From Streptomyces luomodiensis (GTDB taxonomy: Bacteria; Actinomycetota; Actinomycetes; Streptomycetales; Streptomycetaceae): DNA of 64,000 bases. The notes under the pieces were generated by a model, which saw nothing but the letters and a program-made list of their open reading frames with translations, made no database searches and was not told the origin of the DNA. Location: positions 7,192,001 to 7,256,000 of the forward strand of contig NZ_CP117522.1 of assembly GCF_031679605.1 (NCBI RefSeq), read 5' to 3'. Positions 20,012 to 23,915 of the stretch are shown piece after piece. The position numbers were made by a program, and so were the translations under genes. Positions within the stretch are counted from its first letter, which is position 1. Each line of letters begins with the position of its first letter.

Positions 20012-21499
20012 ATGACTGATCACATATCGGAGGCGGTGAGCTGGTGTCTTGCCGTCGCGTTCCTCGTCGTCCTGGTGCTCCTGATCCGCCAGCGGCAGAT
20101 CACCGCCGGCGTTCGCAGACGCAACGTCACGCTCGAGGACAGCGTGCGGGCCCGTGACGAGGAGGTGCGGCACCTCGTCGACGTACGGCTGCCCGCGATC
20201 GGGGACGCGCTGAGCCAGCCCGGCCCGCTGCCGGGCCTGCGGGACGAGAAGCTGGCCGGTACGGCCTTCGCACAGAGCCTGCACGCCGTCACGGAACAGT
20301 TCACCCGAGCGGTGGACAAGGCGCAGGCGCGGGCCGAGGCCTCCGCCAAGGCGGCGCTCAAGTCGTCCATGCGCGCCGTCCAGGGACTCGCGAACGAACA
20401 GCAGGTCTTCATCTCCGAGATGCAGGAGCGGCACGACAACCCCGATGTGCTGCGGGACCTGCTGGAGATCGACCACGCCAACGCCCAGTTCGGCCGGCGT
20501 GCCCAGGCCATCGCGGTGCTCTGCGGGTCCTGGCCCGGCCGTCAGCGGGTGGCCTCCTCGCTCACCGACGTGGTCCGCGGCTCCAAGTCGCGTATCCGCG
20601 ACTACCAGCGGGTGCAGGTGCACACCCTGACCGACCTCGCCGTGGTGAGCCGGGCCGTGGAGCCCGTCGTGCTCGCGGTCGCCGAGCTGCTGGACAACGC
20701 CGCCCGCCACTCGCAGCCCAACACCACCGTGGAGGTCAGCCTCCAGCCGGTGCACAACGGGGCCTGCATCGTGATCGACGACGCCGGTGTCGGCATGGAC
20801 GGCCTGGAGGTCCAGCGGGCCGCCGCCCTCCTCTCCGGCAGCCGCGCCGTGGACGTCTCCCGGCTCGGCGACCCGCCGCAGTTCGGCTTCCCCGTCGTGG
20901 GCCTGCTGGCCGCGCGGTACGGCTTCACCGTCTCGGTGGACACCCGGTCCCCGTACGGCGGTGTGCGCGCCGTGCTGTTCCTCCCGGCCGAGCTGCTCAC
21001 CCGCCTCGACGCCGACGGGAGACAGCCGGGCGCCGCGGCCCACGCCTCCGAGGACGCCGAGGGCGCCGAGCCGCTGCGCACCCTGCCGTCCCGCCGCACC
21101 TTCGCCCCCAGGACACAGGCGCCGGCCGCCCCGCCCCAGGCCCAGCCCCAGTTCCAGGGTCGGCCGCAGCCTCAGGCCCAGCCTCAGCCCCAGGCCCAGC
21201 CCCGGCCTCCGGCGCCCCGGGCGCCCTTGGACGACGAGGGCACGCGCGTGTACGGCTCCACGGCGGGCGGTCTGCCCAAGCGCCGCCGTCGGCAGGCCGC
21301 CGCCGCCCCGCCGGCCGCCGACTGGTCCACCGGAGCCGGGCGGACCGGCGCCGCCGAACCCGGCACGGGCGCGTACCGCGTGCGCTCGGCCGAGGAAACC
21401 GCGGCGCGGATGGGCGCGTTCGCCCGCGGTACCCGCTCCGGCCGTGCCGCCAACCAGGATTCCGCCCCTCACCACGAAGAAGGGAATCGCCAGGCATGA
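20012..21499 (+). CDS. cvnA: Conservon sensor-like ATPase CvnA
   Basis: A 495-residue membrane-anchored, histidine-kinase-like protein. A single TM lies near the N terminus (about 10-28, AVSWCLAVAFLVVLVLLI), followed by a helical region and an HATPase domain with N box VAELLDNAARHSQP and G1 DDAGVGMD. No classical SHELRTPL phospho-site is seen, as in other CvnA proteins. The C-terminal 160 residues are Pro/Gln/Ala-rich and end in the MGAFARGTRSGR motif typical of the family. CvnA works at the membrane with a roadblock protein (CvnB), a DUF742 protein (CvnC) and normally a GTPase (CvnD). It overlaps cvnB as ATGA. Confidence 0.88.
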   Translation: MTDHISEAVSWCLAVAFLVVLVLLIRQRQITAGVRRRNVTLEDSVRARDEEVRHLVDVRLPAIGDALSQPGPLPGLRDEKLAGTAFAQSLHAVTEQFTRAVDKAQARAEASAKAALKSSMRAVQGLANEQQVFISEMQERHDNPDVLRDLLEIDHANAQFGRRAQAIAVLCGSWPGRQRVASSLTDVVRGSKSRIRDYQRVQVHTLTDLAVVSRAVEPVVLAVAELLDNAARHSQPNTTVEVSLQPVHNGACIVIDDAGVGMDGLEVQRAAALLSGSRAVDVSRLGDPPQFGFPVVGLLAARYGFTVSVDTRSPYGGVRAVLFLPAELLTRLDADGRQPGAAAHASEDAEGAEPLRTLPSRRTFAPRTQAPAAPPQAQPQFQGRPQPQAQPQPQAQPRPPAPRAPLDDEGTRVYGSTAGGLPKRRRRQAAAAPPAADWSTGAGRTGAAEPGTGAYRVRSAEETAARMGAFARGTRSGRAANQDSAPHHEEGNRQA

Positions 21500-21921
21500 A
21501 CGACCATCTCACCAACGAGCTCGGCTGGATGCTCGACGAGGTCGTCAAGATGCCGGAGGCACGGCACGCGATCCTGCTCTCCGCGGACGGGATGCTACGG
21601 GCGCACTCCGAGGGCATCGCCCGCGACGAGGCCGAGCGCCAGGCCGCCGCACTCTCCGGGCTCCAGTCGATCAGCCGCTCCACCTCCGAGTTCTGCGATC
21701 CGCAGGAGACGCCCTGGCAGCAGACGCTGGTCGAGTTCGTCGGCGGGTACGTCTTCCTGACCGCCGCCGGGCCCGGCTCGTACCTGGCGGTCTCGGCCAC
21801 CGAGGCGGTGGACATGGAGGCGGTCAGCTACCGGATGCAGAAGCTGGTCGACCGGCTCGGCAAGGAGCTCACCAGCCCGCCGCGGCAGGGCATCGCGCGC
21901 CACGGAATCGGCAGTTCATGA
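21496..21921 (+). CDS. cvnB: Roadblock/LC7 protein CvnB
   Basis: A 141-residue roadblock/LC7-fold protein. NELGWMLDEVVKMPEARHAILLSADGML (shown here as a region, about 6-33) and the strand-helix pattern to residue 120 fit the family, which commonly regulates small GTPases. It overlaps cvnA by 4 bp (ATGA) and cvnC by 4 bp, so cvnA-B-C are translated as a unit. In known conservons CvnB binds CvnA and the GTPase CvnD; here the latter is missing. Confidence 0.9.
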   Translation: MNDHLTNELGWMLDEVVKMPEARHAILLSADGMLRAHSEGIARDEAERQAAALSGLQSISRSTSEFCDPQETPWQQTLVEFVGGYVFLTAAGPGSYLAVSATEAVDMEAVSYRMQKLVDRLGKELTSPPRQGIARHGIGSS

Positions 21922-22274
21922 GTCCAGGGCGGCGCGAACGCGGACTGGTACGGCCGTATGTGGTGACCGACGGCCGTGCCTACCCGACCCGCAACACCTT
22001 CGACCTGGTGACCCTGGTCATGGCCCACCCCGACCGGCCGCTCACCGGACTCAGCCCCGAGAAACGGCGGGTCATGGAGCTGTGCCTGGGCGGCGCGCTT
22101 TCGGTCGCCGAGGTCGCCGGGCATCTGGAGCTGCCCGTCAGCGTCACCAAGGTGCTGCTCGGCGACCTCGTGGACAGCGGGCACGTCTCCACGCGGTCCC
22201 CGATCCCCGCCGCCGAACTCCCCGACACCCAGCTCCTCCAGGAGGTGCTCGATGGGCTCCGCGCTCGTCTCTGA
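21918..22274 (+). CDS. cvnC: DUF742 winged-helix protein CvnC
   Basis: A 118-residue DUF742 protein. RGLVRPYVVTDGRAYPTRN is the family's N-terminal signature, and a winged-helix-like centre (LSVAEVAGHLELPVSVTKVLLGDLVDSG) follows. Start ATG 21918 overlaps the cvnB stop as ATGA. The final codons contain AGGAGGTGCTCG, a near-perfect SD for the next small frame. In other conservons the next gene is cvnD, a GTPase of about 200 residues; here only 180 bp separate cvnC from the P450 gene. Confidence 0.9.
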   Translation: MSPGRRERGLVRPYVVTDGRAYPTRNTFDLVTLVMAHPDRPLTGLSPEKRRVMELCLGGALSVAEVAGHLELPVSVTKVLLGDLVDSGHVSTRSPIPAAELPDTQLLQEVLDGLRARL

Positions 22275-22458
22275 CGGCGCGGTCCATCCGCTTCCCACGG
22301 TGCGGGCGGCGGCGGGGACCCTGGCCGTCGGGCACGTGGCCATCGGCACGTCCCGACCGGCCCGCACCTCACCGGAGAGGCCGGTCCGTACCTCACGGGA
22401 GAAGCAGACCCGTACCTCACCGGAAAGACCGGCCCGTACCTCACAGGAGAGAGTGTGA
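22252..22458 (+). CDS. 68-aa frame in the cvnD position, ending in octapeptide repeats
   Basis: The frame starts at ATG 22252, six bases after a strong AGGAGG (22240-22245). It overlaps the end of cvnC by 23 bp, and its TGA overlaps the GTG start of the P450 gene. This is the tight coupling seen for real conservon genes. The product has an Ala/Gly-rich first half and then four copies of an RTSxERPx octapeptide (last copy partial). No GTP-binding motif (GxxxxGK[ST], NKxD) is present. It is either a novel small protein or the scar of a deleted cvnD. Low certainty that it makes a functional product. Confidence 0.4.
   Translation: MGSALVSDGAVHPLPTVRAAAGTLAVGHVAIGTSRPARTSPERPVRTSREKQTRTSPERPARTSQERV
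22363..22455 (+). repeat. 24-bp tandem repeat, about 3.9 units
   Basis: Units begin at 22363, 22387, 22411 and 22435, each opening with CG[CT]ACCTCAC; period 24 bp, hence in-frame octapeptides. The array ends on the start codon of the P450 gene. Confidence 0.8.
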
Positions 22459-23915
22459 CCTACCGCCCGAACGCCGAGGCCGCCACCGGAGCCGTCCCGC
22501 CACCGGGCTGCCCGGCGCACACCGGCGGCCCGGCCGTCGGCTACCTCGGCGGCGGCGCCCGGGTGCCCATGTACGGCTCCGACTTCGCCGCCGACCCGCA
22601 CGGGCACTACGCGCGGATGCGCGCGGCGGGGCCGATCATCCCGGTGGAACTCGCCCCGGGCGTGAACGCCTGGCTGGTCACCGGCTACTCCCTGGCGCTG
22701 GACGTCCTGCGGGACACCGAGCGGTTCACCAAGGACCCGCGCAGCTGGGCCGCCCTCAGTGAGGGCCGGATCCCCGAGGACAGCCCGGTGCTGGGCATCA
22801 TGATGTACCGGCCCAACGCCCTGTTCTCCGACGGCGCGGCGCACGCCCGCTACCGCGGCGCGATCAACGACAGCCTCAGCCGTATAGATCCGCACGCGCT
22901 GAGCGAGTACGTGGAGCGCAGTGCCGAGACGGCCATCGACTCCTTCGCGGAGCGCGGCGAGGCCGATCTGCTGGGCGAGTACGCCGCGATCATCCCGCTG
23001 CTGGTGTTCAACCAGCTCTTCGGCTCCACGCCCGAGCAGGGCAGCGAACTGGTCCGGGTCACGGCGATCATGTTCGACGCCACCAGCGACGAGACCACCC
23101 AGGCCAACGTCGACATGCTGCGCTACCTGGCGGACCTCGTCGAGGCCAAGCGCCACCGGCCCGGCGCGGATGTCACCTCCTGGATGATCGCACACCCCTC
23201 CGAGCTGTCCGACGAGGAGCTGATGCAGCAGATCGCCCTGCTGCTGGCGGCCGGCACCGAGGCCCAGATGAACCTGATCGCCAACGCGCTGCGGCTGCTG
23301 CTGTCGGACGACCGGTTCGCCGGCGAGCTGTCCGGCGGCAGCCTGCCCGTCCAGGACGCCCTGGACGAGGTGCTGTGGACCGATCCGCCGCTGGCCAACT
23401 TCGGCGCCCGGTTCGCCCGGTACGACGTGGAGATCGGGGGCGCGTGGCTGCGCATGGGGGATCCGGTCCTCATCAGTTACGCGGCCGCCAACAACGACCC
23501 CGAGCTGGCCGGGGCGGACCGTATCGGCAACCGCGCCCACCTGGCCTGGAGCGCGGGCGAACACCGCTGCCCGGCCGACGGCACCGCTCGGGCCATTGCC
23601 TCGGTCGCCATCGAGAAGCTCCTCGACCGCATCCCCGACCTGGAACTCGCCGTGCCCGCCGAGCGGCTGACCTGGCGGCCGGGCCCCTTCCACCGGGCCC
23701 TGACCTCCCTGCCGGTACGCTTCCCGGTCCTGGCGAAGCCCACCCCCGGGCCCGCCCCTGGGCCCGCCTCCGGCCCCGTCCCCGCGTCCGCCCCCGTGCC
23801 CCCGTTGTCATCGGCCCCTCCGGCCGGGACCTCCACGGCGAGGCCGTCCGGCTCCGAGAGCGGGGACCGGCGACGCCCGTGGAGCCCCCTGGGAGAGTGG
23901 TGGCGTGGGCGATGA
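22455..23915 (+). CDS. Cytochrome P450, CYP157-like, lacking the ExxR motif
   Basis: A 486-residue P450 starting at GTG 22455. The haem-ligand loop is HLAWSAGEHRCPADG with Cys372; the I-helix reads LLLAAGTEAQ. At the K-helix, where P450s have E-x-x-R, this protein has Glu305-Val-Leu-Trp308, so the Arg is absent. The CYP157 family of streptomycete conservons is known for exactly this departure. After the P450 fold (about residue 425) comes a Pro/Ala/Gly tail of about 60 residues ending in EWWRGR. The gene follows cvnA-B-C directly, as the CvnE P450s do. Redox partners and substrate are unknown; no ferredoxin gene is adjacent. Confidence 0.88.
   Translation: MTYRPNAEAATGAVPPPGCPAHTGGPAVGYLGGGARVPMYGSDFAADPHGHYARMRAAGPIIPVELAPGVNAWLVTGYSLALDVLRDTERFTKDPRSWAALSEGRIPEDSPVLGIMMYRPNALFSDGAAHARYRGAINDSLSRIDPHALSEYVERSAETAIDSFAERGEADLLGEYAAIIPLLVFNQLFGSTPEQGSELVRVTAIMFDATSDETTQANVDMLRYLADLVEAKRHRPGADVTSWMIAHPSELSDEELMQQIALLLAAGTEAQMNLIANALRLLLSDDRFAGELSGGSLPVQDALDEVLWTDPPLANFGARFARYDVEIGGAWLRMGDPVLISYAAANNDPELAGADRIGNRAHLAWSAGEHRCPADGTARAIASVAIEKLLDRIPDLELAVPAERLTWRPGPFHRALTSLPVRFPVLAKPTPGPAPGPASGPVPASAPVPPLSSAPPAGTSTARPSGSESGDRRRPWSPLGEWWRGR

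Follow-up and report, generated by a model that had tools for sequence, protein, structure and literature searches.

What becomes of a conservon that has lost its GTPase gene? Conservons combine cvnA (an ATPase), cvnB (a roadblock/LC7 protein), cvnC (a DUF742 protein) and cvnD (a Ras-like GTPase). Here, we investigated a locus in a 64,000-nucleotide stretch of Streptomyces luomodiensis (contig NZ_CP117522.1, positions 7,192,001 to 7,256,000; hereafter the window), part of a single-contig genome of 10.04 Mb, in which cvnA, cvnB and cvnC are followed by a cytochrome P450 gene where cvnD would be expected. An earlier note on this DNA described a 68-codon frame in the gap and offered two explanations for it, the scar of a lost GTPase gene or a small protein that had taken its place. 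We conclude that the frame is almost certainly a remnant of cvnD, neither a new protein nor a replacement. The locus as a whole is very likely a CvnE-type conservon that lost its own GTPase gene to an internal deletion, and its core probably still signals.

The 68-codon frame between cvnC and the P450 gene

The distance from cvnC to the P450 gene is exactly 180 bp (22275-22454, with the P450 start at 22455), the figure given before, and a full CvnD is not encoded within it. The 68-codon frame starts with ATG and overlaps cvnC by 23 bp and the P450 gene by GTGA. By inspection, its Shine-Dalgarno sequence, AGGAGG, sits in the 3' end of cvnC and is common to relatives having cvnD. The start signal that the earlier note had described and the overlaps with both neighbors hold up, except that the joint with cvnC is this 23-bp overlap and not an ATGA. 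The cvnD of close relatives begins at this same ATG, 23 bp inside cvnC, and runs for ~200 codons; in most of them its TGA stop overlaps the P450 start. The frame can be divided as follows:

22252-22458, forward strand: 68-codon cvnD remnant with start and stop kept and the middle deleted (alignment to full-length CvnDs)
22252-22353, forward strand: codons 1-34, the CvnD N-terminus with a destroyed P-loop (alignment)
22357-22451, forward strand: tandem repeat with a 24-bp period, 4.0 copies and 78% matches (Tandem Repeats Finder)
22428-22458, forward strand: original 3' tail of cvnD, ARTSQERV-stop, with CAGGAG and the GTGA overlap (alignment and tail comparison)

BLASTP aligned residues 1-47 of the remnant to the CvnD N-terminus of four Streptomyces relatives (L009, L010, L011, L014) at 48-54% identity, and to the CvnD of Saccharothrix and of a paralogue in the same genome at 39%. 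A genome search with the S. hygroscopicus CvnD also matches the remnant, at E 7.6e-5 over residues 1-51. In the alignment, the P-loop GHFAVGKT of full-length CvnDs has become GHVAIGTS. The features by which a CvnD is recognized (the P-loop GxxxxGK[ST], the switch regions and G4/G5) are not found, and the sequence between the P-loop and the tail is absent. At the other end, the remnant reads ARTSQERV-stop followed by CCTACCGCCC, and the S. hygroscopicus CvnD tail and P450 start read ARISQEQA-stop, CCTACCGCCC. The remnant can be aligned with full-length CvnDs of equal start and stop context over its residues 1-34 and again over its final eight. The CAGGAG around the SQE codons of this tail is, by inspection, the likely ribosome-binding site of the P450 gene.

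The four RTSxERPx units reported before are real, as they correspond to the 24-bp repeat. Its last unit is the cvnD tail; therefore, the units look like copies of the cvnD end, and the repeat was most likely made from the 3' end of cvnD. The remnant is 405 bp shorter than the S. hygroscopicus cvnD, so that, with three extra 24-bp units taken into account, the loss from cvnD would amount to ~477 bp.

No family in Pfam or NCBIfam matched the 68-codon frame, and a search of ~5.8 billion proteins with the remnant yielded a single cluster of two sequences that is 100% identical to it. A novel peptide family was considered and rejected, since the frame matched its own cluster alone and both of its ends are explained as CvnD. 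A full-length CvnD used as the query against solved structures found no match.

Loss of cvnD in Streptomyces and constraint on the remaining genes

A comparison across genomes had been proposed in the earlier note, with the reasoning that a GTPase gene in this gap in relatives would make the locus a local deletion. We searched the DNA of 392 Streptomyces genomes with a query made up of cvnB, cvnC, the remnant and the beginning of the P450 gene (E up to 1e-100). This search replaced two others: a looser one of 101 genomes, 100 of which matched at E 0.001, with the weaker matches mostly to the P450 part, and one of 41 genomes at E 1e-20, which matched the genome of the window alone, probably since the genomes were not drawn by nearness. 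Close matches to cvnB and cvnC occur at 67 places in 66 of the 392 genomes, the genome of the window included, and all 67 were examined. We took these places as orthologous, with the reservation that genome G398 contributes a pair of them, of which one or more may be paralogous. At 63 of the 67 places (one of them, L120, assigned by eye), cvnC is followed by a CvnD frame that spans 198 codons or more and has a GKT P-loop; the locus in the window is thus a local deletion in the sense of that reasoning.

The other four places, in the window, G376, G095 and G373, have no full-length CvnD. Of these, G376 carries the label of the same species as the window and, as its coordinates coincide with those of S465, is taken to be Streptomyces sp. 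S465, which together with S. hygroscopicus, S. sp. NBS 14/10 and S. violaceusniger provides the nearest loci in the species collection. Among the eight nearest loci, five have a full-length CvnD and S465 has the remnant; L016, one of the eight, is a distant conservon having CvnD, and L015 is a P450 without a nearby cvnC. The remnants of the window and S465 are 94% identical. In G095, a 58-codon frame follows cvnC; it has the same ATG, and its TGA stop overlaps the GTG start of the P450 gene there. G373 retains about the first 30 codons of cvnD and has lost the start codon and the P450 gene; a permease gene that is also downstream in the window comes next. Judged from these sequences, CvnD appears to have been lost in the species of the window and S465 and independently in G095 and G373. 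A loss leaving an in-frame stub happened twice among the genomes sampled. Both losses that kept the P450 gene (two of two) retained an open, coupled frame, which is suggestive only, since the chance by frame alone is ~1/9.

Since the deletion is common to the window and S465, the simplest reading places the differences between them after the loss. With a neutral share of 0.72 as reference, cvnA, cvnB and cvnC together show 16 synonymous and 6 nonsynonymous changes between the two (p 1.7e-5); cvnA shows 11 and 5 (p 6e-4), and cvnB and cvnC together 5 and 1 (p 0.008). The P450 gene shows 14 synonymous and 8 nonsynonymous changes (p 3e-4; p 1e-3 if transitions are given a weight of 3). The whole remnant, with 3 synonymous and 4 nonsynonymous changes, is indistinguishable from neutral (p 0.34). 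The cvnABC genes and the P450 gene have been under purifying selection since the loss, and the remnant gives no sign of such constraint.

The longer path to S. hygroscopicus, part of which may predate the loss of cvnD, gives a similar picture. Along it, cvnB and cvnC have 28 synonymous and 8 nonsynonymous changes (p 1e-10), compared with 5 and 16 in remnant codons 9-34 (Fisher p 9e-5); these codons, with a ratio of 1.42, are indistinguishable from neutral (p 0.64). The ratio for codons 9-34 is lower elsewhere (1.23 against S. violaceusniger and 0.66 against NBS 14/10), and three intact cvnD pairs gave 0.19, 0.24 and 0.38. Three rows (G181, G400 and G196) were left out as out of register by one codon. 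The drift of the remnant and the constraint on cvnB and cvnC together indicate that the ends of cvnD were set free and that cvnB and cvnC were not.

Competing explanations and the source of a GTPase

We propose that an internal deletion struck cvnD, most simply in the common ancestor of the window strain and S465. It would have spared the start of cvnD, which lies inside cvnC, and its end, which holds the likely ribosome-binding site of the P450 gene. The end would also have been copied in tandem, before or after the deletion, and the outcome would be a 68-codon frame overlapping cvnC and the P450 gene as before. The sensor part (CvnA and the P450) and CvnB/CvnC would still signal, and the selection on cvnABC and the P450 gene makes it likely that this core is functional. 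Since eight CvnDs are encoded elsewhere in the genome, borrowing one of them from another conservon would be the likeliest working mode, a proposal that we put forward tentatively. The short frame, if of use at all, would matter for coupling translation and not for the peptide it encodes; coupling is possible, and we hold it a little more loosely than the borrowing.

The search of the genome for an unlinked CvnD, suggested in the earlier note, found these eight CvnDs, all free of stops and all with a DUF742 gene as neighbor; 11 DUF742 genes in the genome score over the cut-off. The closest CvnD, at 4.235 Mb, belongs to another conservon with its own P450 and is 68% identical to the S. hygroscopicus CvnD; the search of this genome found none at ~90% identity. 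A moved copy of cvnD was therefore rejected, as the CvnDs of S. violaceusniger and S. hygroscopicus are 91% identical to each other. No CvnD was detected at a second cvnABC set in the same genome, near 8.317 Mb (L089 824-4892). This set has a NIT-type CvnA (a 987-aa frame) and a solute-binding protein gene downstream.

We also surveyed DUF742 genes and CvnDs in 12 genomes, with adjacent defined as within 900 bp. At 106 of the 118 DUF742 places, there is an adjacent CvnD match (one, G008 C86, is partial), and one place is the window remnant. CvnD lies 1.1-3.9 kb off in 6 and is missing in 5, so that its loss is uncommon but not rare. G003 and G011 each have one cvnABC set without a detectable CvnD, and at the CvnD-less place of G010, no cvnB was detected. 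Another of the five, near 10.017 Mb in the genome of the window, is a lone DUF742 gene and not a conservon; its frame (L088 4159-5097) overlaps the frame for a sigma-70-region-4 protein, and the surrounding DNA gave no match to cvnA or cvnB. Five of the 12 genomes carry one conservon whose CvnD lies 3.7-3.9 kb downstream of cvnC (L135 in G009, and G002, G003, G007 and G011).

Three other explanations have to be weighed. A small new protein could have replaced the GTPase, with a 68-residue peptide carrying RPxRTSxE units binding CvnB or CvnC. The frame is indeed open, overlaps both neighbors and is kept in two genomes at that 94% identity, and the third-position GC of its N-terminal part is 0.89, like the 0.87-0.94 of its neighbors. 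However, the value is 0.79 for the whole frame and 0.70 for the repeat, both ends of the frame are CvnD sequence, the protein search returned its own cluster alone, and the nonsynonymous counts given above (16 to 5 synonymous in codons 9-34 against S. hygroscopicus, 4 to 3 in the whole frame against S465) stand against it as well. We consider a replacement protein highly improbable. Of the two explanations first offered for the frame, the scar stands, as both ends of cvnD are recognizable, and the replacement falls with the near-neutral drift of the N-terminal codons.

Alternatively, the whole operon may be dying, with the GTPase gone first and the remainder to follow. This would suit G373, where little of cvnD remains and both the cvnD start codon and the P450 gene are missing, as well as G388, without the P450 gene, the long branch of cvnB and cvnC in G095 and the drift of the remnant itself. 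We find it unlikely, as cvnA, cvnB, cvnC and the P450 gene are all open and, in the window and S465, cvnABC jointly and the P450 gene have remained under purifying selection after the loss; the 28 to 8 changes in cvnB and cvnC against S. hygroscopicus agree, with the path partly perhaps from before the loss. The core could also work without any GTPase, with CvnA and the P450 acting directly on CvnB and CvnC. CvnD-less cvnABC sets do recur (the NIT-type set in the same genome and those in G003 and G011), and an extract of PMC8510531 has CvnA and CvnF act partly apart from CvnC and CvnD within the pathway. The same source describes cvnC and cvnD mutants of cvn8 as alike and proposes that the two act together, and eight CvnDs remain available in the cell; such a core is again rather improbable.

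Several observations weigh against a deleted cvnD with a constrained core that borrows its switch. No sign singles out which of the eight CvnDs would be borrowed, and the third loss, G373, without the P450 gene and the cvnD start, looks like plain decay. The cvnB and cvnC tree, on which CvnD loss needs three changes, is a quick one of 75 rows with 28 of 70 inner branches weak, and its well-supported branches force two changes. The G095 branch in it is long (0.12, against 0.019, 0.020 and 0.088 in the three nearest rows), which suggests relaxed constraint. Changes between the window and S465 are few: cvnB has 3 synonymous and 1 nonsynonymous (p 0.05-0.07), cvnC 2 and 0 (p 0.08-0.09), and the difference between the remnant and cvnABC in this pair is not significant (Fisher p 0.16). 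Remnant codons 9-34 differ in this pair by one synonymous change only, which would also suit a replacement protein.

Cross-talk among the many conservon copies per cell has only been proposed (PMC8510531, in extract). A natural strain with constrained CvnA, CvnB, CvnC and P450 and no GTPase of its own offers a ready test of CvnD sharing. We doubt, on present sequences, the bolder idea that GTPase loss is a recurrent stable end state of P450-type conservons, with a shared GTPase and a stub selected only to couple P450 translation. If a shared GTPase and a coupler stub were true, switches could be exchanged between conservons, which would then make up a network instead of insulated pathways of four genes each. 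The locus also calls for caution, as a small frame that has a good Shine-Dalgarno sequence and overlaps both its neighbors can consist of what a deletion left at either end of a gene.

Core genes, the P450 and known conservons

The genes around the remnant are:

20012-21499, forward strand: cvnA, sensor-kinase-like ATPase (Pfam HATPase_c, E 1e-8; frame open)
21496-21921, forward strand: cvnB, roadblock/LC7, MglB-like (Pfam Robl_LC7, E 1.1e-18)
21918-22274, forward strand: cvnC (Pfam DUF742, E 8.7e-38), with the Shine-Dalgarno sequence of the cvnD start within its 3' end
22455-23915, forward strand: cvnE-type cytochrome P450, CYP157A-like (EVLW in place of ExxR, heme Cys, Pro-rich linker, C-terminal WWRG)

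As the earlier note had it, cvnA, cvnB and cvnC are intact, with all three frames open and ATGA overlaps at both joints. By eye, the CvnA protein has a single hydrophobic segment at its N-terminus and LPSR near its C-terminus; a Pfam scan found no NIT sensory domain in it. CvnB is 97% identical to its S. hygroscopicus counterpart, and the CvnC protein is identical between the window and S465. The ATPase, roadblock/LC7 and DUF742 members of a conservon are thus present and the Ras-like GTPase is not. With cvnD reduced to its two ends and the P-loop Lys gone, the locus is a conservon derivative and not a complete conservon.

The P450 scores 18 bits against the general Pfam model, below the cut-off, and matches several NCBIfam P450 models, none over the cut-off. 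Its motifs are EVLW and WSAGEHRC with the heme Cys. Conservon P450 relatives have EVLW in 47 of 48 rows (EMLW in the other) and the heme Cys in 48 of 48. A cruder pattern that included cut-off matches and distant rows gave EVLW in 61 of 73, EMLW in 1, EYAQ in 1 and none found in 10. Between species, the dN/dS of the P450 gene is 0.42-0.72, compared with 0.06-0.26 for cvnB and cvnC, also among relatives having CvnD. The P450 gene is gone in two relatives, L141 (G388) and L142 (G373); the operon end adjoins the window's downstream amino-acid permease gene in G373, and in G388 this follows from shared upstream DNA.

Conservon P450 relatives further share a variable Pro/Ala-rich linker followed by a conserved C-terminal WWRG plus E, Q or R (23720-23915 in the window). 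Among rows drawn from the window, L009-L014, L058, L098-L134, L140, L143, L144 and L146, the WWRG tip is present in 36 of 52, or in 35 of 43 without four paralogues from the same genome, four rows off the stretch and one duplicate. The 8 misses among the 43 include WWHG, WWQG and tips without the motif. The tip is possibly a docking peptide.

Replacement of ExxR by an EVLW-type motif, with an upstream conservon, is a mark of CYP157A according to an extract of PMC3599690, citing Rupasinghe 2006. The window P450 follows the core genes, lacks ExxR and keeps the heme Cys, as expected of CvnE (CYP157). Compared with the CYP157A P450s as that extract presents them, it shares EVLW and the link to an upstream conservon, and we saw no difference; the likeness is one of motif and not a formal subfamily assignment. 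Extracts of PMC8510531 and PMC13343842 describe P450-type accessory genes as tied to CvnAs without a sensory domain. The CvnE conservons of S. coelicolor (cvn9-12) in these sources have the same cvnA-cvnB-cvnC order, a NIT-less CvnA and a P450 next, as in the window. However, cvnD in the window is reduced to two ends without a GTPase domain.

The earlier note also held that all described conservons include CvnD. This is contradicted by the second CvnD-less cvnABC set in the same genome and by PMC4316618, where, in the portions available, orphan MglB genes with conservon genes on their flanks are taken as a sign that the GTPase gene was lost, and some adjacent duplicated conservons are without a GTPase gene. 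The locus in the window matches that description, with an mglB homologue, flanking conservon genes and no Group 2 mglA, and shares with those loci the patchy loss of the GTPase. A search of the literature, seen in part and not exhaustive, found no description of such a cvnD stub. GTPase-less conservons are thus already in print in PMC4316618. Compared with what those portions describe, the window adds the 68-codon remnant with its repeat and the constraint under which cvnABC and the P450 gene have stayed, and the remaining interest lies in the persistence of the core and the repeated in-frame stub.

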